This document shows positions 33,656 through 62,530 of a stretch of 62,530 nt of DNA, piece after piece; positions within the stretch are counted from its first letter, which is position 1; every line of letters starts with the position of its first letter. The translations under genes and the position numbers were made by a program. Below the pieces are notes generated by a model. That model was not told the origin of the DNA. It did not search any database and saw nothing but the letters and a program-made list of their open reading frames with translations. Source of the DNA: a virus; the IMG/VR virus record IMGVR_UViG_3300044691_000381, positions 1-62,530 of that record. One strand, 5' to 3'.

Positions 33656-34201
33656 TTAGTCACGGTAGACCGCATGGGGGAAATTCAGTTTCGCGAACTC
33701 TCCGAATAGCTCAATCGCCTTCATGTCGACGGCCCGTGCCGCCGCTTCGGGTGACTTGTGGTTCCCACAGTGATATTCGATGCCATTGGCGACAACCCTC
33801 CCGCGATATCTAGCTTGGCTCTGACGCCAACTAACACCCTTGAATCCCGAGGTGTTTATTCGTCTTTTGCCGCGATTAGCCCCGTTCTGGGAAACGGTCG
33901 CTAGGCGAAGGTTGCCATTAAAGTTGTGGAGTTTGATCCCGTTGCGATGGTCAACGTCCAGCTCGTCCGGAGGATTTGTCAGGACTCGATGCATCAATAT
34001 CAGGCCGCATGGGCCACCCTCGGATATACGTCTGTTTCGGGCGACATAGCCGTTCGAAGTGACGTGCCAAGCAAAAAACGCTAAGCGATCTGCACGCTCT
34101 TTATTTACCAGCGTGAATCGTTCTCTCGGTAAAGGTATGTAGGCTATCGACGGCCCGATCACGTGAATAGGATTTCGTTTTGGAATGAACTGATTAGCCA
34201 T
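33656..34201 (-). CDS. HNH homing-type endonuclease with AP2 domain, copy 1
   Basis: The 181-aa product has an HNH motif (MHRVLTNPPDELDVDHRNG, then NFNGNLRLATVSQN) and a C-terminal AP2-type DNA-binding domain (SGFKGVSWRQSQARYRGRV, ending GEFAKLNFP). These free-standing nucleases behave as selfish elements in phages. It begins at 34201 with AGGAG upstream, overlapping the dnaB end by 8 bp; the longer ORF start is inside dnaB. A paralogue lies at 37129-37707. Confidence 0.88.
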   Translation of the reverse strand: MANQFIPKRNPIHVIGPSIAYIPLPRERFTLVNKERADRLAFFAWHVTSNGYVARNRRISEGGPCGLILMHRVLTNPPDELDVDHRNGIKLHNFNGNLRLATVSQNGANRGKRRINTSGFKGVSWRQSQARYRGRVVANGIEYHCGNHKSPEAAARAVDMKAIELFGEFAKLNFPHAVYRD

Positions 34202-35603
34202 CGGCTCTCCTGTCGTGGTAATAGCCATCCAAATATGGCTGCCCTTGGGAGGAACTAGTTGGGTCTTCCCAGCGAAGAATGTTGCCCCTATAGCGGCACT
34301 CACACGTCTTGGTGATGCCCTGCCTGTTCTTCGAAATAATCATGTGCCCTATCCCCTTGAGTGCCTCATCGGATTTGTCGAAGAGTTCGGGCCGGTGCAG
34401 GAATGCCACGATATCCGCATGGTTCTTCACCTTCCCCGACCCTGCAATGTCCGTGATCCTCGGGGTTGGGTCGGTACGCTTCGCCGCCTCCTGCGTCAAC
34501 TGGACAAGCAAAACGACCGGAACGCCTAGTTCTTTGGCTATCTTCTTTGCCATTTTCGCCTGTCGCCCAACAATCTCCTCTGGATTGACGCCCCTCTCGT
34601 AGACGTCAGTGTTTTCGGTGTGGCTCAACTGGTCGATCACTATGAGGTCTAAGCCCGTCGGATGGCCTTCGGCAAGCTTCTGGCGCTTCAGCTTGGCGCA
34701 CTTGGCCTTGATGCGGGTCATGGTCATCTCTGGCGTCTCGTCGAGGTACAGCGGGGCGGCGGCGAGCTGGGCGCGGCACTCGAGAATAAGAGACTGGTCG
34801 CGAGGCCCAAGGTTCCCATCTCGGATGGCGCGGTGGTCTACCTCGGTGGCTGCGGATATCATTCTCCGGACCGCGGCTCCACGGCCATCCTCGAGAGGGA
34901 AGTAGGCTGTGACCTTTCCGAGGACCACCGACGTGTAATAGACCGCGTTGCAGGCCCACGCCGTCTTCCCGGAACTCGCCATGGCTGCCAGCACAATCAA
35001 TTCTCCCGGCTGCAGCCCTCCGGTGCACTCATCCCACTGCGTCCAGCCCAACATGAGGCCCCCGGTGGTTGCCATGGCCTCAAGAGCCTCTGAGTCGTCC
35101 CCCTGGGAGGCGAGGTAGGCGCCGACGTGCTCCATGTCGGCGTCCGGCGAATCTTCCGCGAGGTCCTTGAACTCCTCGATGACGCGCTCTAAAAGGTGCT
35201 GGTCGTCTTCCTGCTCATCGCTGGCGTCTGACTCTGCCCGGTTTGCCAGAAGCATGACGGCGCGGAGCCGGGCCTTCTTGCGGAGGAGTTTGACGTAGCT
35301 GCTGATATCGAACTTGCGCGGGACGCCTTCTGTGAGTGCAAGGATGTACTGGAGGCCGCCGACGGCATCAAGTTCCCGCCGCCGCTCAAGTTCTTCAATT
35401 ACGAGGGATGAATCGACCACCGACGTACTCTTGGCGAGATGCAAGATAACCGCGTAGATGCGCTTGTGGGAGTCGAGGGCAAAGTCGGTGACTCGTAGGC
35501 TCTCCTGAGCGAGTACCAGCGCCTCTGGCTCCAGCATGACCGCGCCAAGGGTCGCTACTTCGATGTGTCCGCTCTTTGGGAGTGGCAATTCTTGCGTGCT
35601 CAT
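34194..35603 (-). CDS. dnaB: DnaB-like replicative helicase
   Basis: The 469-aa protein has an N-terminal helical domain (residues 10-120: ATLGAVMLEPEAL, IYAVILHLA) and a RecA-like motor with Walker A MASSGKT (208-214), Walker B LIVIDQ (320-325), motif VPVVLLVQLTQ (361-371) and SGKVKNHADIVAFLHR (389-404). It unwinds DNA 5' to 3' at the phage fork as a hexamer. The ATG at 35603 overlaps the previous stop (ATGA); the longer in-frame ORF is rejected. A cognate loader is probably encoded in the right operon (56679-58023). Confidence 0.93.
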   Translation of the reverse strand: MSTQELPLPKSGHIEVATLGAVMLEPEALVLAQESLRVTDFALDSHKRIYAVILHLAKSTSVVDSSLVIEELERRRELDAVGGLQYILALTEGVPRKFDISSYVKLLRKKARLRAVMLLANRAESDASDEQEDDQHLLERVIEEFKDLAEDSPDADMEHVGAYLASQGDDSEALEAMATTGGLMLGWTQWDECTGGLQPGELIVLAAMASSGKTAWACNAVYYTSVVLGKVTAYFPLEDGRGAAVRRMISAATEVDHRAIRDGNLGPRDQSLILECRAQLAAAPLYLDETPEMTMTRIKAKCAKLKRQKLAEGHPTGLDLIVIDQLSHTENTDVYERGVNPEEIVGRQAKMAKKIAKELGVPVVLLVQLTQEAAKRTDPTPRITDIAGSGKVKNHADIVAFLHRPELFDKSDEALKGIGHMIISKNRQGITKTCECRYRGNILRWEDPTSSSQGQPYLDGYYHDRRADG

Positions 35604-37128: not shown

Positions 37129-37707
37129 TTAGAAATCTTCCTGTAAAGCAAGGACTCCGGTAGTTGGTAACTGTGGACGAGGGAAATTCGTTCGCGCGAA
37201 CTCGCCAAAGTGTTCAATGGCGGCTTCATCGTAGGCTTTGGCGGCCTCAATCTCTTGCTCGATTGGATAGAATCCGAGATTGATCAACTTTCCGTTGACG
37301 CGAATCATCGAGCGGCAATATTGGGTATCTCCGAACCGGGTCACGCCTTTGTACTTGCGCGTAGCGTGGGTGGACTGATTCATCGAGTTTTGGTGAGCTG
37401 TAGCTATACGAATTTGCGATCTTCGGTTATCGAGCGTCTTCGCATATCGATGATCAACGGTTTTGCCTAGTGGTGATTGGAGAAGCTGACGCGCCATGAA
37501 CACGGTCCGTTGCTTCCCATCCACAACCTCAGTGCGACCCGCATAGAACTTGCCTGGCGTTAGCTGCAAGGCCTGCCAAGTCCACTGAGATAGCAATTCG
37601 GCATCATCACGGTCGACCAACGCGTATAAGCCTTGAGTGAGTTGGATGTATGCGATTGAAGGACCGGCTGGGATGATTGCAGGGCGAATTGTTCGTGGTC
37701 TTCCCAT
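37129..37707 (-). CDS. HNH homing-type endonuclease with AP2 domain, copy 2
   Basis: The 192-aa product shares its plan with the nuclease at 33656-34201: GPSIAYIQLTQGLYALVD, an HNH region (LGKTVDHRYAKTLDNRRSQI) and an AP2-like end (KYKGVTRFGDTQYCRSMI, GEFARTNFP). In the HNH region Asp-His is present but the following Asn is within LDNRR, a variant. It starts at 37707, four bases after the rusA stop. Probably a mobile nuclease gene inserted in the operon. Confidence 0.85.
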   Translation of the reverse strand: MGRPRTIRPAIIPAGPSIAYIQLTQGLYALVDRDDAELLSQWTWQALQLTPGKFYAGRTEVVDGKQRTVFMARQLLQSPLGKTVDHRYAKTLDNRRSQIRIATAHQNSMNQSTHATRKYKGVTRFGDTQYCRSMIRVNGKLINLGFYPIEQEIEAAKAYDEAAIEHFGEFARTNFPRPQLPTTGVLALQEDF

Positions 37708-37711
37708 TGGC

Positions 37712-38131
37712 TTACCACTCCTCTCTTGCTGGCATAGGCGCATCCAGAAGGGCCAACTGCCCCACTGGACGTATGAAAATCTCTGTGCGTGGATTGGTGC
37801 GGTCTCTGACCTTATAGGCGTGCAGGGCTGTTACCTTGTGGTCGCTGTCGATGACGCCAGCTTTCACAATGGAATCGAGGATGCACTTTCCGTAGTTGTC
37901 GACGTCGCCCCGCTCATTGCTCCCCTGGTAGACCACATAGGCGACTTCGAACCAATTGGCAATGAGCGACCGCCCACCGGCGCAGATGCCGACAGCGCGC
38001 CACCATTCCTTAGCTTCCTTCGAGGGGTACGCCATCACCGTAGCGATGCCATTGATGGTCGCAACGCGGTGCTTCATGTAGTGGTTTACGCTGGGCGGGG
38101 TAAGTGGAACTGTAACTCGCAGGGTCGACAC
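37712..38131 (-). CDS. rusA: RusA-family Holliday junction resolvase
   Basis: The 139-aa protein matches RusA: N-terminal VPLTPPSVNHYMK, core RGDVDNYGKCILD with acidic catalytic residues Asp76, Asp78 and Lys82, and IDSDHKVTALHAYKV with another acidic pair. RusA cuts four-way junctions and fits with the nearby RecT/YqaJ pair and DnaB. It resolves recombination or replication intermediates before packaging. Confidence 0.9.
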   Translation of the reverse strand: MSTLRVTVPLTPPSVNHYMKHRVATINGIATVMAYPSKEAKEWWRAVGICAGGRSLIANWFEVAYVVYQGSNERGDVDNYGKCILDSIVKAGVIDSDHKVTALHAYKVRDRTNPRTEIFIRPVGQLALLDAPMPAREEW

Positions 38132-44352: not shown

Positions 44353-44607
44353 CTAAAGCGTCATGAAGCTTGCATCCCCCGGCGCGGCGCCGAGCTTGCG
44401 AAGAATGGTTGGCTCAACCGTGGGAGAGAAGGGCTGGGCGTTCTGCTGGGTGATGTAGCGCAACAGGATCCTTGCCTCTGGGTTCGCTCTCAGCTTGCGA
44501 AACGCTTCCCGCTCCAAGCGCGATACCTCGGCCTGAGAGATTCCCAATCGGAGCGCTACTACTTCCTGACTACGTACGGCGACTTCGCGGACGCGGCGGG
44601 ATTCCAT
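44353..44607 (-). CDS. Small HTH protein, sigma region 4-like (84 aa)
   Basis: Residues 10-42 (VRSQEVVALRLGISQAEVSR, then EREAFRKLR) look like the helix-turn-helix of sigma-70 region 4, without a region 2. A regulator of early or middle transcription is plausible. It starts by a 1-bp overlap with the DUF6197 gene stop. A second region 4-like small protein lies at 55425-55634. Confidence 0.65.
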   Translation of the reverse strand: MESRRVREVAVRSQEVVALRLGISQAEVSRLEREAFRKLRANPEARILLRYITQQNAQPFSPTVEPTILRKLGAAPGDASFMTL

Positions 44608-47572: not shown

Positions 47573-47602
47573 ACTCTAGTCTCAACTAGTGTGCAAAGTC
47601 AA
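47573..47602 (-). promoter_or_regulatory. Leftward early promoter with embedded ACTAGT operator
   Basis: On the - strand, TTGACT (47602-47597) and TAGAGT (47578-47573) are 18 bp apart, good -35 and near -10 hexamers. The spacer contains CACACTAGTTG (47593-47583), sharing the ACTAGT core with three other sites around the lysogeny region. A repressor bound here would block polymerase and shut off the whole left operon. Confidence 0.7.
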
Positions 47603-47615
47603 CTTAAATTAGTTT

Positions 47616-47631
47616 CATACACTAGTGTATG
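47616..47631. promoter_or_regulatory. 16-bp perfect palindrome, putative operator
   Basis: CATACACTAGTGTATG is a perfect 16-bp palindrome centred on CTAG, 14 bp upstream of the -35 of the leftward promoter. It shares the ACTAGT core with the site inside the promoter spacer, so it is a likely high-affinity or cooperative repressor site. Confidence 0.7.
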
Positions 47632-47702
47632 ACTAGAATCAACCCGAAGGGTGCTATTGTGAATCTCGGGTTCCCCGCATAAGTGGGTTGAGCCTCGCCG
47701 GG

Positions 47703-47748
47703 CCGCTCCCGTTGTGCTCCCGAGGGCGCACTCCTACCGCGGGGGCGG
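47703..47748. other. GC-rich nested hairpin in the control region
   Basis: CCGCTCCCG (47703-47711) pairs with CGGGGGCGG (47740-47748) over 9 bp with one G-T pair, and inside it GTGC..GCAC with CCC/GGG (47714-47731) forms a second hairpin. It lies in the 356-bp gene-free region 47543-47898 between the early promoter and the lysogeny terminator. It could be a regulatory or antisense RNA, or part of one. No T run follows on either strand. Confidence 0.45.
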
Positions 47749-47836
47749 TTCCGGCACACTAAAGATTGTGATGGGGACGGGATTTCATGGAGTCCAAGGC
47801 CACCGTCTCAAAAGAGCCAATAAAGCTGCCCATTGC

Positions 47837-47872
47837 AAACAGAAAGGCCCTCCGAAGAGGGTCTTTCTGTTT
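47837..47872. terminator. Bidirectional terminator at the end of the lysogeny operon
   Basis: A 16-bp stem (47837-47852 with 47857-47872, one G-T pair) has a CGAA loop and T-rich 3' arms on both strands. On the - strand it ends the operon that runs from the excisionase-like gene to the gene at 47899. On the + strand it protects that operon from opposing transcripts. Its GCCCTC-cgaa-GAGGG core is shared with the hairpin at 29162-29187. Confidence 0.9.
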
Positions 47873-47898
47873 GCCCGGCCACCCAGCCGGGGAGCGCA

Positions 47899-48267
47899 CT
47901 ACTTCTTAGTATTCCATTCAGGCAGGCCCAGTAACTCCTCTTTGCCGGCCACGGTCAGGCTGCCAACTTTTAGCGCGATCCTGATGCCCACTTCAACATT
48001 CGACGCGGCGCGCTTCTTTCCTATGGCGACGCCGCCATCCATGAGGATCTTCTGCAGGTCTACCTTCGGCATGGGATTGCCATGTTCTTCCAGAACGGTC
48101 CGTATGGCAACCAGCGGCCTAACATTGTAGAAGCGGGTTGCCGGGGAGTCCGCCAGCCCTTCGGACAGCGCCTCGAATCTGTTGAGGGCTGCCAGCGCGG
48201 CCTTGCGGGGCTTGAGTTGTGCTTTCAGTTGCTCGATCTCTAGTTCCAGGGTTTCGCGTGAGTTCAT
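47899..48267 (-). CDS. Coiled-coil plus winged-helix-like protein, paralogue A (repressor candidate)
   Basis: From the ATG at 48267 the product is 122 aa. Residues 1-35 form a coiled coil (LELEIEQLKAQLKPRKAALA) and residues about 50-122 resemble a winged-helix (HARE-HTH-like) domain: IRTVLEEHGNPMPKVDLQKI, ASNVEVGIRIALKVG and the end LLGLPEW. It is paralogous to the next protein. Lying last in the lysogeny operon, between the two operator regions, it is one of the few candidates for the ACTAGT-binding regulator. DNA binding is inferred only. Confidence 0.6.
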   Translation of the reverse strand: MNSRETLELEIEQLKAQLKPRKAALAALNRFEALSEGLADSPATRFYNVRPLVAIRTVLEEHGNPMPKVDLQKILMDGGVAIGKKRAASNVEVGIRIALKVGSLTVAGKEELLGLPEWNTKK

Positions 48268-48302
48268 TGTCGTTGTCGCCCTCCTACAGGGGACGTACCG
48301 AT

Positions 48303-48710
48303 CTACTTCTTGTTCGCCCACTCAGGAAGGCCGATAAGCTCGTCGTCAGCTATTTTTGCTTTCTTATCTTTGCCCGACCGCGTGATGTTGTTGTTCCTGG
48401 CATTGATCTTGATTGACAGGTCGATGTCGCTCTCAGGGGTCTCGTTTCCGTCTGCCGCGCCGCCGTCAAGCAATATCTTTCGCAGTTCGGCCTTCTTCAT
48501 CGGCTTGCCGTGCTCTTCAAGGATTTCCCGGATCGAGGCTTTGTGTTTCTTCTTGTAGAAGCGGGTCGAGGGGGAGTCGGGCAGTTCTTCGACCTCCCCC
48601 TTTTTGAGGACTGCACGAGCGGCCTTCTTACGCTTTAGCAGAGATGCGATCTGCTCCATTTGAGCTTCCAACTCCTCGATCTCCCGGTCCAACATTTCGC
48701 TTGAATCCAT
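48303..48710 (-). CDS. Coiled-coil plus winged-helix-like protein, paralogue B (repressor candidate)
   Basis: The 135-aa product has the same plan as paralogue A: coiled coil (DREIEELEAQMEQIASLLKR), PSTRFYKKKHKASIREILEE, HGKPMKKAELRKILLDGG and the end IGLPEWANKK. Tandem duplication of a small regulator with different basic patches suggests division of labour, for example repressor and anti-repressor or Cro-like partner. It is transcribed with the excisionase-like and integrase genes. Confidence 0.6.
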   Translation of the reverse strand: MDSSEMLDREIEELEAQMEQIASLLKRKKAARAVLKKGEVEELPDSPSTRFYKKKHKASIREILEEHGKPMKKAELRKILLDGGAADGNETPESDIDLSIKINARNNNITRSGKDKKAKIADDELIGLPEWANKK

Positions 48711-48714
48711 AGTT

Positions 48715-49221
48715 TTACAAGATCGCCCGAATGGCGTGTCCTTCCATCGGCTCCAATTTTTCAGATATGCGCTCGATGAGTTTCAATTCTTCCCCGTACG
48801 TCCAGAGAAGATCGCAGGTGTAATGTCTACCGAGTCCGAGTCTACCAATAACCTTCTCGATTACGGAAAGAAGAATTTGCCACCGCAGTTTTGCGTGGTC
48901 CTCACGCATGATCTCGAACATGGTCGCCATCTCAGAGTCCTCCGATTGAACGATTCTGGCATGGTTGGCGAAACATACGAACTGCCGTGAGTTCCAAAAT
49001 ATATTCAAGAGGTCGTCCTTCGATAGATGCACGTCCTGCCTAGAGGCTGGGTCTTTGCCGGAACGTATGCCGTGGAGTGTTACCCGTCCAGATTCACTGA
49101 GCGGGCGTGTCTCGCGGAGAAATGTTTCAACGGTGATGCCCCTTCGGTGGAAGCGGGATATGGAAGAGGAGGCTAAGGCTCCGGCCAGGAGAGCGGCTGC
49201 TCCGGAATAGATCGAATTCAT
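48715..49221 (-). CDS. Membrane-anchored protein, possible lysogenic cargo (168 aa)
   Basis: The ATG at 49221 overlaps the upstream stop (ATGA). One N-terminal transmembrane segment (about residues 4-22, IYSGAAALLAGALASSSIS) precedes a soluble helical domain (FWNSRQFVCFANHARIVQSE, WTYGEELKLIERISEKL). Co-translated with the multi-span protein upstream, so the two may form one membrane complex. No family recognised. Confidence 0.6.
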   Translation of the reverse strand: MNSIYSGAAALLAGALASSSISRFHRRGITVETFLRETRPLSESGRVTLHGIRSGKDPASRQDVHLSKDDLLNIFWNSRQFVCFANHARIVQSEDSEMATMFEIMREDHAKLRWQILLSVIEKVIGRLGLGRHYTCDLLWTYGEELKLIERISEKLEPMEGHAIRAIL

Positions 49222-49976
49222 GAGGTTAGGGACCTTTCGTGTCGTGACGGTTCGTGGAGGTGGCTCCGGTACTTGCGGAGAGCCGTCTTCAGGAGTTCCG
49301 TCTGGGCGGGGTCCCACTGATGACTAGCGACTTGGTAATTGGAGGAGATGAACCAAAGTACGAGGGAGATGAGGTAAGTGATTTCGGTGACGTGGGTGAC
49401 TCGGACCGCCAGATGCGTCCTGATGGCGGTATCAACTGCCCCAGAGCGGGCAATCGCATAGAGCGAAAACCCGAGGTAAACCAGTAGCAGCCGGGTATCT
49501 TTTGCGGAGTCGACCATCCAAGCATAGAGCGGTGCCGCTGCCAGCATCAGGCAAAACCAGTACAGTGCGACGTGATCGACCGCAAGAAACCACTTCCATC
49601 CCGGATCGATGTTGCTGGTGAGGGGGAAGCGCAGCGTCAGAATCGCGATTGCAAGCATGCAGCCAGCGAAGACCTGGAGGAGAACAGGATTCCTGTCCGG
49701 GATGCCGGTCTTGCGGATCGCCTGGAAGAGGGCCACCACGAGATAGATATGGGCGGCATAATCAACAAACCACCCTACCCAGCAGGCCGCGTGGTAGACC
49801 TGCCATGGAGCCAAGCGAGCCACAGCGAAGAGCCAGATGGAATTGCCGACCACCGCCCCTAGATATGCCGCCAACGCGATGTTGCGGCGCCTATAGGCCC
49901 ACAGGCCGACAGTAAGTTGACCGAGTACGACAGCAAGCCAGATGCAAAGCTGGAGGTGGGTGATTTTAGTATGCAA
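49218..49976 (-). CDS. Seven-span membrane protein, possible lysogenic cargo (252 aa)
   Basis: The product has about seven hydrophobic helices (LCIWLAVVLGQLTVGLWAY, NIALAAYLGAVVGNSIWLFA, and so on) and a short charged C-terminal tail. It starts with TTG at 49976 because no ATG or GTG lies in frame nearby; the ribosome binding site is weak. I associate similar unnamed proteins with Acidobacteriota genomes. In a lysogen it could change the envelope or exclude related phages; this is inference from location. Confidence 0.6.
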   Translation of the reverse strand: MHTKITHLQLCIWLAVVLGQLTVGLWAYRRRNIALAAYLGAVVGNSIWLFAVARLAPWQVYHAACWVGWFVDYAAHIYLVVALFQAIRKTGIPDRNPVLLQVFAGCMLAIAILTLRFPLTSNIDPGWKWFLAVDHVALYWFCLMLAAAPLYAWMVDSAKDTRLLLVYLGFSLYAIARSGAVDTAIRTHLAVRVTHVTEITYLISLVLWFISSNYQVASHQWDPAQTELLKTALRKYRSHLHEPSRHERSLTS

Positions 49977-50009
49977 GGCGCCCCCGGATGGAAGCGCCCT
50001 GCACGGGGT

Positions 50010-50201
50010 CTACTTCTTGTGAGGCTTGACCGGCAAAGGTGCCGGCGCCTTGTGGGAACCGCAGGCGGGGGGACACGGAGTTGGAACTCCTACCGGGCCT
50101 TGTGCGAGAAGAGACGCATCGTTGCGCGTGGCAACATGCATAGACGCAAACAGGGCCAGAACAAGAACAAAGGCGAAGAATAAAGCCAGACGAGTTTTCA
50201 T
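50010..50201 (-). CDS. Small exported Pro/Cys peptide (63 aa)
   Basis: AAGGAG seven bases before the ATG at 50201 is a strong start. Residues 1-20 (MKTRLALFFAFVLVLALFAS) are a signal peptide or anchor; the rest is polar with PTPCPPACGSHKAPAPLPV, two Cys that could form a disulfide. It lies between attP and the membrane genes, the usual position of lysogenic conversion genes. No family recognised. Confidence 0.6.
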   Translation of the reverse strand: MKTRLALFFAFVLVLALFASMHVATRNDASLLAQGPVGVPTPCPPACGSHKAPAPLPVKPHKK

Positions 50202-50479
50202 TGAAAGCTCCTTTGGCGCGTGAATGCGCTACACAGAGCTTACGAAGGGAAAGGTGCTGGCAATAGAGAGCAGGCGAGGTAACTTTGCTGCGAACCAGAA
50301 CAGTAACCAAAGTCATAGGAAAAGACAAGAGGAATTTCCGATGACACGGAAGTCCTTTGTCTACTACACGACGATGAGGTAAATGGGGACCGGGTGAGAC
50401 ATAGCTGGAACTGGCTGTGGAAAAAACCAATGGGGGAACGCATCGCATGAAGGCCAAATCACTGTCAGAGCAATTTCTG

Positions 50480-50500
50480 CCAGTGGCAGTTTGAGTGGCA
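50480..50500. repeat. 21-bp direct repeat, attP left arm
   Basis: A 21-bp sequence containing two AGTGGCA units separated by GTTTG is repeated exactly at 50744-50764. The copies lie about 125 bp and 57 bp from the tRNA core, fitting integrase arm-type sites. The surrounding 50202-50624 contains no supported gene. Confidence 0.6.
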
Positions 50501-50624
50501 CCTCCAGCCTGTACTCGGTGCACCTTATGCGCTTCTATGCAATTCAGACGTTTTGCGGAAGTTCTTGTCTTTATTGGTCTATGCGGCTTTATGCGTCTCG
50601 GTGCAAAGCTAGCGTACATGGCTT

Positions 50625-50687
50625 GCAGCGGACTTAAAATCCGCAGGGAGCAATCCCATGAGGGTTCAAGTCCCTCTCCGGGCACCA
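50625..50687 (+). other. attP: attP core: 3' part of a tRNA-Leu(UAA) gene
   Basis: The sequence has a complete anticodon arm (GCGGA-CTTAAAA-TCCGC, anticodon TAA at 50635-50637), a short variable arm (GGGAGCAATCCC), a T arm (GAGGG-TTCAAGT-CCCTC, 50660-50676), the 3' acceptor strand TCCGGGC, a discriminator A and encoded CCA (50685-50687). The matching 5' acceptor strand GCCCGGA and a D arm are absent upstream. This is the usual form of attP for phages that integrate into tRNA genes and restore the 3' end. The integrase gene ends 26 bp away. Confidence 0.9.
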
Positions 50688-50712
50688 ACAAACTAAAGGT
50701 GCTTAGCTCCAT

Positions 50713-51795
50713 TTAGCCAGCCCTTCCGATCTTCTTGGAATTCCCAGTGGCAGTTTGAGTGGCAGTTCCAATTGAAACCACGTTTCGGAGTGCTGGCGCT
50801 GTCAGTATCTTCTCGACCTCGATCTGTTTATGGTCTGGGCAGAGGTGCGCATACTGTGCCGTGATGGAGATGGTCTTATGTCCGGCGAGTTCTTGGATTG
50901 TCTTCAGGGGAACCCCGGCAATCGCCAGCCATGAGCAGAACGTGTGCCGGTTGCAGTGCCAGACGTAATCCTCGATCTCAGCCGTCTCCATTGCCGGATG
51001 GAACCATGAGCGGGTATCGAAGTTGGCGCCCTGCCGGGGGAAGACTCGCTCTTTCCGCTTGGGTGTTACGCGGGCCTTGCGTGTGGCCAGAATCTCTTTC
51101 ACCTGGGAGTTCATCATCACGGTACGATCGTCGCCATTCTTTGTCGCAGTTAGGTTGATTTCATCGCGCTCAAAGTCTACCTGCCACCACTCCACGGTGT
51201 ACTGCTCAGTGAGGCGCATTCCGGAGAGCACCGAAACCGCGAACTCTTCCTTGTGGGGATCTTTGATGGCAGCGTACAGGTCGGCATATTCGGAGCGGGA
51301 GAGGAAGCGCTTGCGGCCCTTTGCTTGCGGACGTTGGTGGATTAGACGAGCCGTGTTCATCTTCACCTTCCCCAACCGTATGCCTTCTTTGTAGGCCAAG
51401 GAGACAAAGGCCTTGTAATGGTTGAAGGTGCTGTCACTGACGTCGCGCGCCTTGATCCAATCGCTGATCTCATCGGGGCCGATCTCATCGGCAATGCGCG
51501 TACCGAGCCCGTCCTTCAGCAGTGCGGCCTTAGTCACATAGTCCCGAACCGACTTGTTGTGTTCGCGCGCATAGGCAAGCGCCAGGTCTGCCAAGTCTCC
51601 AACCGTCACCTTCTTCCTCCGCAGCTCGGGAAGCTTATCTCCCGTGAGGAGTTCCGTACGGCGCTTCCGGTAGAGTTTGCCTGCGTCGGTCTTGGTGCCA
51701 GCGCGCTCCCGCCGCCGCTTGCCATGATCGAAATACTGACACCACCAGATACCGCTGCCTACCGGGCATTCGTAAACGCCCCGCTCTTTAGCCAT
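50713..51795 (-). CDS. int: Tyrosine integrase
   Basis: The 360-aa protein has a core-binding domain (about 60-155) and a catalytic domain with Arg194 (SGMRLTE), Lys219 (TKNGDDRTV), His280-x-x-Arg283 (WHCNRHTFCSWL), His306 (LAGHKTIS) and nucleophile Tyr315 (AQYAHL). It recombines attP with the tRNA-Leu(UAA) gene. Its C-terminus contains the right copy of the 21-bp repeat, so arm-site DNA and coding sequence overlap. Transcribed with the excisionase-like gene just upstream. Confidence 0.97.
   Translation of the reverse strand: MAKERGVYECPVGSGIWWCQYFDHGKRRRERAGTKTDAGKLYRKRRTELLTGDKLPELRRKKVTVGDLADLALAYAREHNKSVRDYVTKAALLKDGLGTRIADEIGPDEISDWIKARDVSDSTFNHYKAFVSLAYKEGIRLGKVKMNTARLIHQRPQAKGRKRFLSRSEYADLYAAIKDPHKEEFAVSVLSGMRLTEQYTVEWWQVDFERDEINLTATKNGDDRTVMMNSQVKEILATRKARVTPKRKERVFPRQGANFDTRSWFHPAMETAEIEDYVWHCNRHTFCSWLAIAGVPLKTIQELAGHKTISITAQYAHLCPDHKQIEVEKILTAPALRNVVSIGTATQTATGNSKKIGRAG
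50744..50764. repeat. 21-bp direct repeat, attP right arm (inside int)
   Basis: This exact second copy of the repeat at 50480-50500 lies within the last codons of the integrase gene, encoding part of its TATQTATG end. See the left copy for spacing. Confidence 0.6.
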
Positions 51796-51804
51796 GGGTT
51801 TCTC

Positions 51805-52020
51805 CTAAGCGGACACCATATCAGAATGCATAATCTCGGCGGCGACGCGCTTGACGTCTTCGCTGGGGATGAGGACGCGCCGACCCTTGCGGCGGGTTCG
51901 CAGCTTGCCATCGCTGATGAGGTAGTCGATTGCCCGGACCGACATAGCCAGGGAGCTCGCGGCTTCGTAGCGGGAATAGAAGAACTTTTCGAAGGCTACA
52001 ACCTTTGCACGCTGCTGCAT
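51805..52020 (-). CDS. Excisionase-like HTH protein (71 aa)
   Basis: The 71-aa product has a MerR/HTH_17-type fold: YEAASSLAMSVRAIDYLISDG, KLRTRRKGRRVLIPSEDVKR. Such proteins act as excisionases or as small repressors. It lies first in the lysogeny operon, directly downstream of an operator-bearing promoter and 9 bp before int. I favour a recombination directionality factor, but it could also be the operator-binding regulator. Confidence 0.7.
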   Translation of the reverse strand: MQQRAKVVAFEKFFYSRYEAASSLAMSVRAIDYLISDGKLRTRRKGRRVLIPSEDVKRVAAEIMHSDMVSA

Positions 52021-52055
52021 GGACTTGCTCCGAGGAAGAATTTGGTTGAGTGACG

Positions 52056-52085
52056 ACTATGGTACTTTTGGACACTAGTTGTCAA
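52056..52085 (-). promoter_or_regulatory. Leftward promoter of the excisionase-integrase operon
   Basis: On the - strand TTGACA (52085-52080) and CATAGT (52061-52056) are 18 bp apart. The spacer holds the ACTAGT-core site GACACTAGTTGTC (52071-52083 on the + strand), so the same protein that controls the left early promoter probably controls this one. Confidence 0.7.
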
Positions 52086-52096
52086 TCTATTTTTAA

Positions 52097-52131
52097 ACTA
52101 GTTGACTAAATAGTGTTAGCTGGGTTAGTGT
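52097..52131 (+). promoter_or_regulatory. Rightward early promoter with ACTAGT operator
   Basis: TTGACT at 52102-52107 and a weak TAGTGT at 52126-52131 lie 18 bp apart, the same -35 and spacing as the left early promoter. The operator AAACTAGTTGAC (52095-52106) overlaps the -35. It would drive the right early operon starting at the TTG at 52157. Confidence 0.6.
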
Positions 52132-52156: not shown

Positions 52157-52306
52157 TTGTTCTTCAATCTCGTCCTCTGCCTTGCAGTGTGTTTGCTCGT
52201 CACCTCACCCCTAACCTTCCACAAAGCCCGCATTCTCAAAGACAAACTGGTCGACTGGATCGAGCGCAAGCAGTTCGAGAGGCTTGTAGACCGGGTGGGC
52301 CGATGA
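52157..52306 (+). CDS. First gene of the right early operon: small membrane protein, TTG start (49 aa)
   Basis: AGGAG at 52146-52150 precedes a TTG start, and the TGA overlaps the next ATG. The product has an N-terminal hydrophobic helix (MFFNLVLCLAVCLLVTSPL) and a charged amphipathic helix (LVDWIERKQFERLVDRVGR). As the first gene of the operon it would be made earliest after induction. Confidence 0.55.
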   Translation: MFFNLVLCLAVCLLVTSPLTFHKARILKDKLVDWIERKQFERLVDRVGR

Positions 52307-55168: not shown

Positions 55169-55428
55169 TTGTTTCGGCTCGCCAGAAGCCAGTTGAGCAG
55201 TTGCCTGAATGGGCGCTGTGCTGCGACACGATGCGACAAGAGCACATGACCGAAGAGAAGCTTGGCAGCATCCTGAAAGTCGAGTCGGAATCAGCGTTCT
55301 CGGGTGAGGCCGAATGTCACCACTGTCATCGAATAACCCCGAATATCAGGGTTTTACTATCCACCAGCCGCCCAAAGCTTGCGATCCCAGTGGACAACTA
55401 CGACTTTGATGAGGGGGAATCAGAATGA
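55165..55428 (+). CDS. Small CxxC protein (87 aa)
   Basis: The GTG at 55165 overlaps the previous stop (GTGA). The product has CHHC (about residues 51-54) and an earlier CC pair, consistent with one zinc site, and an acidic C-terminus. Function unknown. Confidence 0.6.
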   Translation: MIVSARQKPVEQLPEWALCCDTMRQEHMTEEKLGSILKVESESAFSGEAECHHCHRITPNIRVLLSTSRPKLAIPVDNYDFDEGESE

Positions 55429-55634
55429 GCCGCCCCCGCAAAGTCCTCTCTTCCCGACCGCAGATGAGTTTAGCCGAGATTGCCGAGGAATTGGGCACGA
55501 CCAAGAGCGCCGTAAATATGTGCCTGGTCCGCGCCCTGAAAAAGCTCCGCTCTCAGGGACTCGTAATCAAGATGCAAGAACTTGCGGATGACCTTGACCG
55601 CAACCGAAAGGGAAGTGCGCACTATGAGACCTAG
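55425..55634 (+). CDS. Small HTH protein, sigma region 4-like (69 aa)
   Basis: The core SLAEIAEELGTTKSAVNMCL then RALKKLRSQG is a region 4-type helix-turn-helix. With the similar protein at 44353 and the full sigma factor at 61895, the phage encodes three region 4-like modules. A transcriptional role is inferred. Confidence 0.65.
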   Translation: MSRPRKVLSSRPQMSLAEIAEELGTTKSAVNMCLVRALKKLRSQGLVIKMQELADDLDRNRKGSAHYET

Positions 55635-56046
55635 AAAGAAGATCCTCTGTGTGGATTGCAATGAGCAGACTCTCTCGGTTCGCAAGTTCTTCCTTGAGAC
55701 GCGCGGCTTCCGTGTGGTTCCAATGGCGACCTCAGACGAAGCGCTCGCGATTCTCGAGCGGGCACTCCCGTACTCCATCGACCTGATGATCTGCGAGCTT
55801 TTGATGCCGCAGATGGACGGCAATGAGTTGGTGAGGCGCGCCAAGCAACTGCGTCCCGAACTGGCAGCAATGGTCATCTCCAGTGGGGTCGGTGCGCTCG
55901 AGTTCGCCAAGCATGCCGACGTGTTCCTTGCAAAGGGCTGTAGCTCCCCGACTGAAATATACGGCTTCGCGCGTCGCTTAGTGGCACGCAAACCGGGTCC
56001 AAAACCAGCTTCTCATTCAGGGTCCCAGGCTGGGAGGGTGGCGTGA
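55624..56046 (+). CDS. Stand-alone response-regulator receiver domain, phospho-Asp replaced by Glu
   Basis: The 140-aa protein matches a CheY-like receiver: ILCVDCNEQTLSVRKFFLET, DLMICELLMPQMDGNELVRR, MVISSGV and VFLAKGCSS. Asp11 of the acidic pocket is kept but its partner is Cys12. At the phospho-acceptor position (before LLMPQMDG) there is Glu58 instead of Asp. Ser86/87 and Lys104 match the Thr/Ser and Lys positions. A Glu can mimic the phosphorylated state, so this may be a permanently active partner of a host signalling or transcription protein. Rare in phages. Confidence 0.8.
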   Translation: MRPRKKILCVDCNEQTLSVRKFFLETRGFRVVPMATSDEALAILERALPYSIDLMICELLMPQMDGNELVRRAKQLRPELAAMVISSGVGALEFAKHADVFLAKGCSSPTEIYGFARRLVARKPGPKPASHSGSQAGRVA

Positions 56047-61473: not shown

Positions 61474-61907
61474 GAGCCAAGCGCCCACTCTTTGGTTGGT
61501 CCGTCGAAACGCCATCTAAGTCCGCAATATCCAAGCCCACTACCGGTCCAACGTGGAACGACGCCGACAACATACCCGATCCCAAAGCCCGCAGCATGGA
61601 CGAACAGGTAGAGATGCGCTGCAAGACCAAGCGTCTGGCCGACTGCGAGCTGCCTGAAGGATTCAGGTTAGTCACCAAGACGCCCCGGCAGTACTGGATT
61701 GACTCTCAGTTGCGATGGGGCTTCGAACTTGCATTTGGGGAACATCGGCACATAGCGCGGTATATCCAGCAGGTAGCCGATGACGTGCAGATGCAGTGGG
61801 CAATCGCTGACTTCACCGCAGAGCTGATGTTCAACGGCGTGTCGCTCAACCCAAACAGGAAGCGGCACGAGACCGCGCGCAAGGAAGCGCGTCCATGTCT
61901 GGTTTAG
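61470..61907 (+). CDS. Hypothetical protein before the sigma factor (145 aa)
   Basis: The GTG at 61470 overlaps the previous stop (GTGA). The C-terminal 80 residues are helical and aromatic (RQYWIDSQLRWGFELAFGEH, QVADDVQMQWAIADFTAELM) and may bind a protein partner. It overlaps the sigma factor gene by 13 bp, so the two are co-translated. Confidence 0.6.
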   Translation: MRAKRPLFGWSVETPSKSAISKPTTGPTWNDADNIPDPKARSMDEQVEMRCKTKRLADCELPEGFRLVTKTPRQYWIDSQLRWGFELAFGEHRHIARYIQQVADDVQMQWAIADFTAELMFNGVSLNPNRKRHETARKEARPCLV

Positions 61908-62476
61908 AGGCTGTGGACGACACGGCCCATCTGATCGAATCTCAACTTGAGACCGTAAAGCGTATCGCCGGTCACATTTTCCACAAAGTCAAGGGGAAGG
62001 TGGAGTACGACGACCTTATTGGAGCTGGAAATCTCGCACTCGTGCAGTGCATTGGATCATACGATCCCTCCCGCGCCTCCCTAAAGACATTCGTCTCGCG
62101 CAGGGTATTCGGCGCAATGATTGACTTCCTGAGGCTGGAAGACCCCGCATCGCGTAACCGGCGGAAGGAACTCGGACCATCTTTCCAAATCTCGCAGCAA
62201 TTTGCAGACGAGGCAGACGAGACCGGGCTGAAGCTTTCAGAACTGCATTCATGTTTCATTGATCCACAAGCGGCCGCGATTCGATCAAACCTCTTTGATT
62301 CGCTGAATGCTTATCCCACGGACAATCCCCGTGACCGTACGGTGCTTGTGATGGCTTTTGTTGAAGATAAGCGTCAGGAAGAGATAGCGAAAGAGTTAGA
62401 CGTTTCACCGGGGCGAGTGAGCCAAATCATAGCCAACGAATCCTCGAAGCTTCGCGCTCACCTGAAAGTGGCGTAA
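61895..62476 (+). CDS. Phage-encoded sigma factor, FliA/WhiG type
   Basis: The 193-aa protein has sigma region 2 (residues 15-90: EYDDLIGAGNLALVQCIGSY, FVSRRVFGAMIDFLRLEDPA, with GAMIDFLR close to the GAMLDELR of FliA/WhiG) and region 4 (145-190: DRTVLVMAFVEDKRQEEIAK, LDVSPGRVSQIIANESSKLR). Region 3 is short and region 1.1 absent, so it can bind core polymerase directly. It is the last gene before the packaging genes on the closed circle, so I infer it directs host RNA polymerase to late promoters. AAGGAAG precedes the ATG. Confidence 0.9.
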   Translation: MSGLEAVDDTAHLIESQLETVKRIAGHIFHKVKGKVEYDDLIGAGNLALVQCIGSYDPSRASLKTFVSRRVFGAMIDFLRLEDPASRNRRKELGPSFQISQQFADEADETGLKLSELHSCFIDPQAAAIRSNLFDSLNAYPTDNPRDRTVLVMAFVEDKRQEEIAKELDVSPGRVSQIIANESSKLRAHLKVA

Positions 62477-62530
62477 GGAACTTAGGAGTTCCCATGTTTC
62501 TATCCGCACAAGACCTCGTATTCTTCGGGC
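62404..62530. repeat. Terminal direct repeat, right copy (circular closure)
   Basis: This is an exact copy of positions 1-127. See the left copy for interpretation. Confidence 0.97.

Follow-up and report, generated by a model that had tools for sequence, protein, structure and literature searches.

The subject of this analysis is a set of short sites with the core word ACTAGT in a temperate phage from the environment, which has no close relatives in the collections searched. The DNA examined, called the window throughout, is the whole of IMG/VR record IMGVR_UViG_3300044691_000381, 62,530 bases in length. An exact direct repeat of 127 bases is found at its termini (1-127 = 62404-62530), and because the two ends are identical the record can be taken as a complete circular phage of ~62.4 kb. 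The structural genes are read rightward, starting at the terminase, and the genes for replication and recombination are read leftward from ~47.5 kb. Another rightward operon begins at 52.1 kb and extends as far as the gene of a phage sigma factor at 61.9 kb. The ACTAGT sites lie in two control regions, which are non-coding and stand at the heads of opposed operons, and their pattern suggests a two-sided operator system acting on early promoters. Between the two clusters are the integrase gene (int), the adjoining phage attachment site (attP), and a pair of paralogous genes in a leftward gene group whose end adjoins the left cluster.

The initial annotation had placed four ACTAGT sites at these regions, and four exact words are indeed there (within OL1, OL3, OR1 and OR2 of Table 1). 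The total count of the word is not unusual, with six copies in the whole window against 4.5 expected. What is unusual is where they lie: four copies fall within the 229 bp of the two intergenic control regions, compared to two in the other 62.2 kb, and those two (33133 and 34254) are inside open reading frames (ORFs). This is far from the equal frequency in coding DNA that had been named beforehand as the observation that would speak against operators. When both control regions were shuffled with their dinucleotides preserved, four copies of ACTAGT arose in 2 of 20,000 shuffles, and any palindromic hexamer reached four copies in 6 of them (0.03%). A hexamer of any kind did so in 4.5%, so it is the palindromic nature of the word that matters. 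The inner word CTAG is clustered too, with 6 of its 57 genomic copies in the control regions, a number matched in 6 of 10,000 shuffles, and the left control region is its densest cluster in the window. The clustering of operator-like sites is real and non-random.

The strongest test of the likeness between the two regions is cross-prediction, in which symmetric 16-bp matrices were trained on the right pair only, on the left pair only, or on four sites, and their matches were ranked genome-wide. The best two new matches of the right-only matrix are the left sites at 47585 (rank 3) and 47608 (rank 4), and the best two new matches of the left-only matrix are the right sites at 52097 (rank 3) and 52074 (rank 4). 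The two ACTAGT copies within ORFs come far down these rankings, so the operator sites have their flanks in common as well. The site at 47608 (OL2) has rank 5 with the four-site matrix and just rank 74 with the left-only matrix, and its score is reached by shuffled residual sequence in 73 of 3,000 trials (p ~0.024), making it a suggestive candidate for a fifth operator. A third site at the right cluster, at 52109, was dropped (1.6 bits, rank 141). The distance between OL1 and OL2 is 23 bp, and so is the distance between OR1 and OR2, OL2 being the degenerate one of these four. The strong sites are 13, 23 and 36 bp apart, and bare CTAG words in the left region recur at 10 and 11 bp. OL3 is the longest perfect palindrome in the window; a perfect palindrome had been reported there before, its length given as 16 bp instead of 18.

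The positions of the sites relative to promoters follow the same plan on both sides. In a consensus promoter scan that covered 6.2 kb, with ~2.4 matches expected by chance, only two were found, the predicted leftward early promoter PL and the predicted xis-int promoter, and both are at operator sites. In each, the -35 element lies between both operators of the 23-bp pair, one of which falls within the spacer while its partner lies upstream. PL leads into the replication and recombination operon, where RecT and RusA are among the family matches. The initial annotation had described three promoters that share TTGACT/A and an 18-bp spacer, and this description is borne out for PL and the xis-int promoter. 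The third, the proposed rightward early promoter PR, is not secure. It is the least certain part of the system since its -10 box is poor and a rival (TGGACA-17-TTTAAA at 52069-52097) scores better, at 9/12.

Table 1. Features at and between the two control regions, with positions in the window.
Feature	Position	Strand	Basis and remarks
PL, predicted leftward early promoter	47573-47602	-	TTGACT-18-TAGAGT; consensus scan
OL1 CAACTAGTGTGCA	47585-47590		Exact ACTAGT; in -35/-10 spacer of PL
OL2 AAATTAGTTT, degenerate fifth site, suggestive	47608-47613		Matrix ranks; just upstream of PL -35
OL3 TCATACACTAGTGTATGA, perfect 18-bp palindrome	47615-47632		Contains ACTAGT at 47621-47626
Paralogue A, coiled-coil/winged-helix, candidate repressor	47899-48321	-	45% identical to paralogue B
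Paralogue B, coiled-coil/winged-helix, candidate repressor	48303-48710	-	Weak HARE-HTH match (E=0.02)
Candidate integrase arm-type site, 27-bp direct repeat, copy 1	50480-50506		93% identity to copy 2
attP, 3' part of tRNA-Leu(UAA)-like gene	50612-50684	+	Rfam RF00005, 29.9 bits
Tyrosine integrase	50713-51795	-	PF00589 E=1.4e-23; phrog_1 E=4.6e-55
Candidate integrase arm-type site, copy 2	50744-50770		Repeat search; one repeat copy in 3' end of int
71-amino acid HTH_17/excisionase-family protein	51805-52020	-	PF12728 E=1.6e-5 and TIGR01764 E=2.3e-6, both just under cut-off
xis-int promoter, predicted	52056-52085	-	TTGACA-18-CATAGT; consensus scan, 10/12
OR1 GGACACTAGTTGTC	52074-52079		Exact ACTAGT; in spacer of xis-int promoter
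OR2 AAACTAGTTGAC	52097-52102		Exact ACTAGT; abuts proposed PR -35
PR, proposed rightward early promoter	52102-52131	+	TTGACT-18-TAGTGT; weak, 8/12
49-amino acid small membrane-type ORF	52157-52306	+	TTG start; first gene right of OR, from sequence
DUF3268 gene	Directly after the 49-amino acid ORF		PF11672 match

Between the clusters, no complete tRNA was found at attP by ARAGORN. The 27-bp direct repeats around the tRNA-derived core are likely to be the arm sites of the integrase. A second repeat (TTATGCG...TGCAA) is present near attP at 50525 and 50589. The use of ACTAGT itself as an integrase arm site was considered and rejected, as other repeats flank attP. The 71-amino acid protein is 40% identical to the product of a mycobacteriophage gene annotated Xis and matches mycobacteriophage genes annotated excise, and by this similarity it is most likely Xis, the excisionase.

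The position of attP has a consequence for the two clusters. They had been described as 4.5 kb apart, and this holds in the phage circle. It does not hold in the integrated prophage because attP lies between them; after integration, one cluster would be ~1.4 kb inside one prophage end and the other ~3 kb inside the opposite end, placing them ~58 kb apart.

Taken together, the ACTAGT sites are probably operators of the dimer type that serve a single regulator of early transcription, which would jointly repress PL, the xis-int promoter and probably PR; a rough probability of 0.6 is given to this reading. The two modules would be OL (47585, 47608 and 47621) and OR (52074 and 52097), each with a 23-bp site pair through which a leftward promoter runs. 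With a dimeric regulator on the paired sites, RNA polymerase would be kept from PL and the xis-int promoter, and probably also from PR; the right operon would then be silenced along with excision, recombination and replication. Repression is what the position of the sites suggests, and cooperativity may be supposed as well. Contact between OL and OR by looping would be possible mainly before integration and would be largely lost after it, since attP lies between the modules. Of the two-sided switch put forward initially, the operator system on early promoters is thus well supported as a prediction by sequence statistics and by the architecture common to both sides, and the protein proposed to bind it is a candidate only.

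The general kind of system is known and the details are new. The closest comparison is the pair of OL and OR regions of phage lambda, to which the clusters may be functionally analogous. In lambda, the centres of neighbouring operators are ~23 bp apart, the spacing seen in both pairs here, one of which includes the degenerate OL2. Both phages have two clusters of short dyad operators, with up to three sites each, that overlap opposed early promoters, and in the window, as in lambda, one operator word recurs at two separate early promoter regions and overlaps promoter elements. In lambda, there are two sets of three operators, ~2.3 kb apart (PMC5880393). The operator word here is a different one, however, and no homologue of CI or Cro is among the family matches listed. 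In addition, attP is between OL and OR here and outside them in lambda, so that the clusters part on integration, and xis-int is transcribed from OR here, whereas in lambda it is transcribed from PL.

What protein would bind the sites is a separate question. A total of 113 ORFs were scanned against protein families (25 best-represented families per search), and no CI, Cro or S24 family was found among the matches listed, in agreement with the earlier statement that no CI or Cro-like gene is visible. This includes the lambda-type arrangement of a CI repressor (HTH_3 plus S24) with Cro between the operators. The HTH_3 matches that were found are weak (best E=0.0014) and belong to proteins resembling sigma factor region 4. 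The initial annotation had named as possible binders the two paralogues and the 71-amino acid helix-turn-helix (HTH) protein. The latter is a poor candidate because of its excisionase match and because attP lacks any ACTAGT-like site, and the paralogues remain as candidates by elimination of the others. The binder being one or both of them is the best guess, and a tentative one. Paralogue A has no significant match in the family searches. A weak nucleotidyltransferase match of paralogue B was judged spurious since the DxD motif is missing from paralogue A. An AlphaFold2 model of paralogue B has a long N-terminal helix followed by an H-H-E-E order of helices and strands, with a mean predicted local distance difference test (pLDDT) score of 58, which is low; with this low confidence, the paralogues may combine a coiled coil with a winged-helix-like pattern.

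One could instead consider that the phage lacks its own repressor and that the sites serve as operators for a regulator of the host, such as a LexA-type or other global repressor. The family scan, with no CI, Cro or S24 match listed, would fit this, and the lexA family was not found in the phage. Known LexA boxes are made of spaced half-sites, and the contiguous CTAG core is unlike them. The host-regulator explanation is a real alternative, although an unlikely one. A precedent for it is phage GIL01, a temperate phage in which no CI-type repressor is recognised and host LexA takes this role (PMC4551915). The GIL01 sites are SOS boxes, however, and in the present phage a host repressor would be a candidate explanation.

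Another possibility, of low likelihood, is that the 71-amino acid excisionase, by binding at these sites, acts as a repressor of the early promoters in the manner of Apl of phage 186 and Cox of P2. Dual-role excisionases are established, and Apl binds 6-bp direct repeats spaced by 10-11 bp at promoters and attachment sites (PMC7498355). The likeness lies in the short operators at early promoters and in the excisionase gene adjoining the control region, here OR; its product belongs to an HTH/excisionase family, and the CTAG words of the left region also recur at 10 and 11 bp. The strong sites, however, are palindromes at the wider spacings given above, which fits poorly with the ladder of direct repeats bound by Apl. 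Apl-like sites would also be expected at attP, and no ACTAGT-like site is present there, the best score being 4.8 bits (rank 29 genome-wide). Neither is there an excess of short words common to attP and the control regions, which share no more of them than random windows do.

Each early operon also encodes a stand-alone sigma-region-4-like HTH protein (44353-44607 on the minus strand and 55425-55634 on the plus strand). It is improbable that a small early protein of this Cro- or activator-like type binds the sites to control lytic timing instead of lysogeny. In its favor are the HTH matches and the location of the two genes, in the operons that OL and OR precede, but an operator in a promoter spacer would favor repression over activation, and the sigma-region-4 character suggests a role at the -35 elements of other promoters. 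Finally, the same hexamer could have come up repeatedly by chance, both promoter regions being AT-rich. The 4.5% figure for hexamers of any kind would speak for this, but it is highly improbable given the 0.03% for palindromic hexamers, the flank-based cross-prediction between the regions, and the equal 23-bp spacing.

Several results count against a single repressor acting at both operator modules. The right-only matrix gives the 18-bp palindrome (47621) just rank 45, OL2 is degenerate, the -10 box of PR is poor, and a direct alignment of the left and right regions is not significant, its score being reached in 314 of 5,000 shuffles. The structure predictions had low confidence, and fold searches found nothing. 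Also, no relative of the switch that would show conservation was found in the viral contigs searched. Neither the paralogues nor the integrase, Xis and DUF3268 proteins have close relatives there, and at the DNA level a tRNA was all that the switch region matched in phage records. Relatives of the terminase exist (47-59% identical), and the stretches fetched around them held no similar integrase, paralogue or ACTAGT cluster; a search of 289 genomes from the phylum to which one terminase carrier belongs gave no integrase match at E <= 1e-25. A pattern scan of the viral contigs for the OR arrangement gave two matches, both in coding sequence, and a scan for a 23-bp pair with TTGAC gave eleven, nine of them inside coding ORFs and the other two between genes of unrelated phages. 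These matches were judged to be at about chance level. In one GC-rich contig of an unrelated phage (L039:3235-3267), two ACTAGT words 23 bp apart with TTGAC are found in an intergenic divergent region, which may be chance.

If the joint-repression reading is confirmed, the phage, which has no sequenced close relative, would have a lysis-lysogeny switch with a repressor beyond recognition by current family models. The position of the attachment site would mean that integration changes the distance between the operators, and this can be tested directly against the lambda looping model. The fuller proposal, in which the paralogue pair is a new repressor family on CTAG-core operators and integration rewires the switch, with contact only in the unintegrated circle, is doubtful.

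Some other features of the window can be mentioned. Beside the 18-bp palindrome starts a GC-rich stretch (47645-47874, plus strand) that is predicted to give a structured rightward RNA, transcribed away from OL3 and ended by a bidirectional hairpin terminator at 47835-47874. Its folding z-score is -5.6 with the terminator and -2.1 without it, and +1.0 for the other strand; a small regulatory RNA is possible. A FliA/WhiG-like sigma factor (61895-62476, plus strand; TIGR02479 E=1.2e-26, under its cut-off) is encoded just upstream of the terminase genes, which suggests phage-encoded control of late transcription. A protein with a response-regulator receiver domain (55582-56046, plus strand; PF00072 E=3.1e-9) is encoded in an early operon. 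Two similar HNH/AP2-type endonuclease ORFs, at 33656-34303 and 37129-37743 on the minus strand, lie in the replication operon and are probably homing elements, and both match one region of another record (L041).

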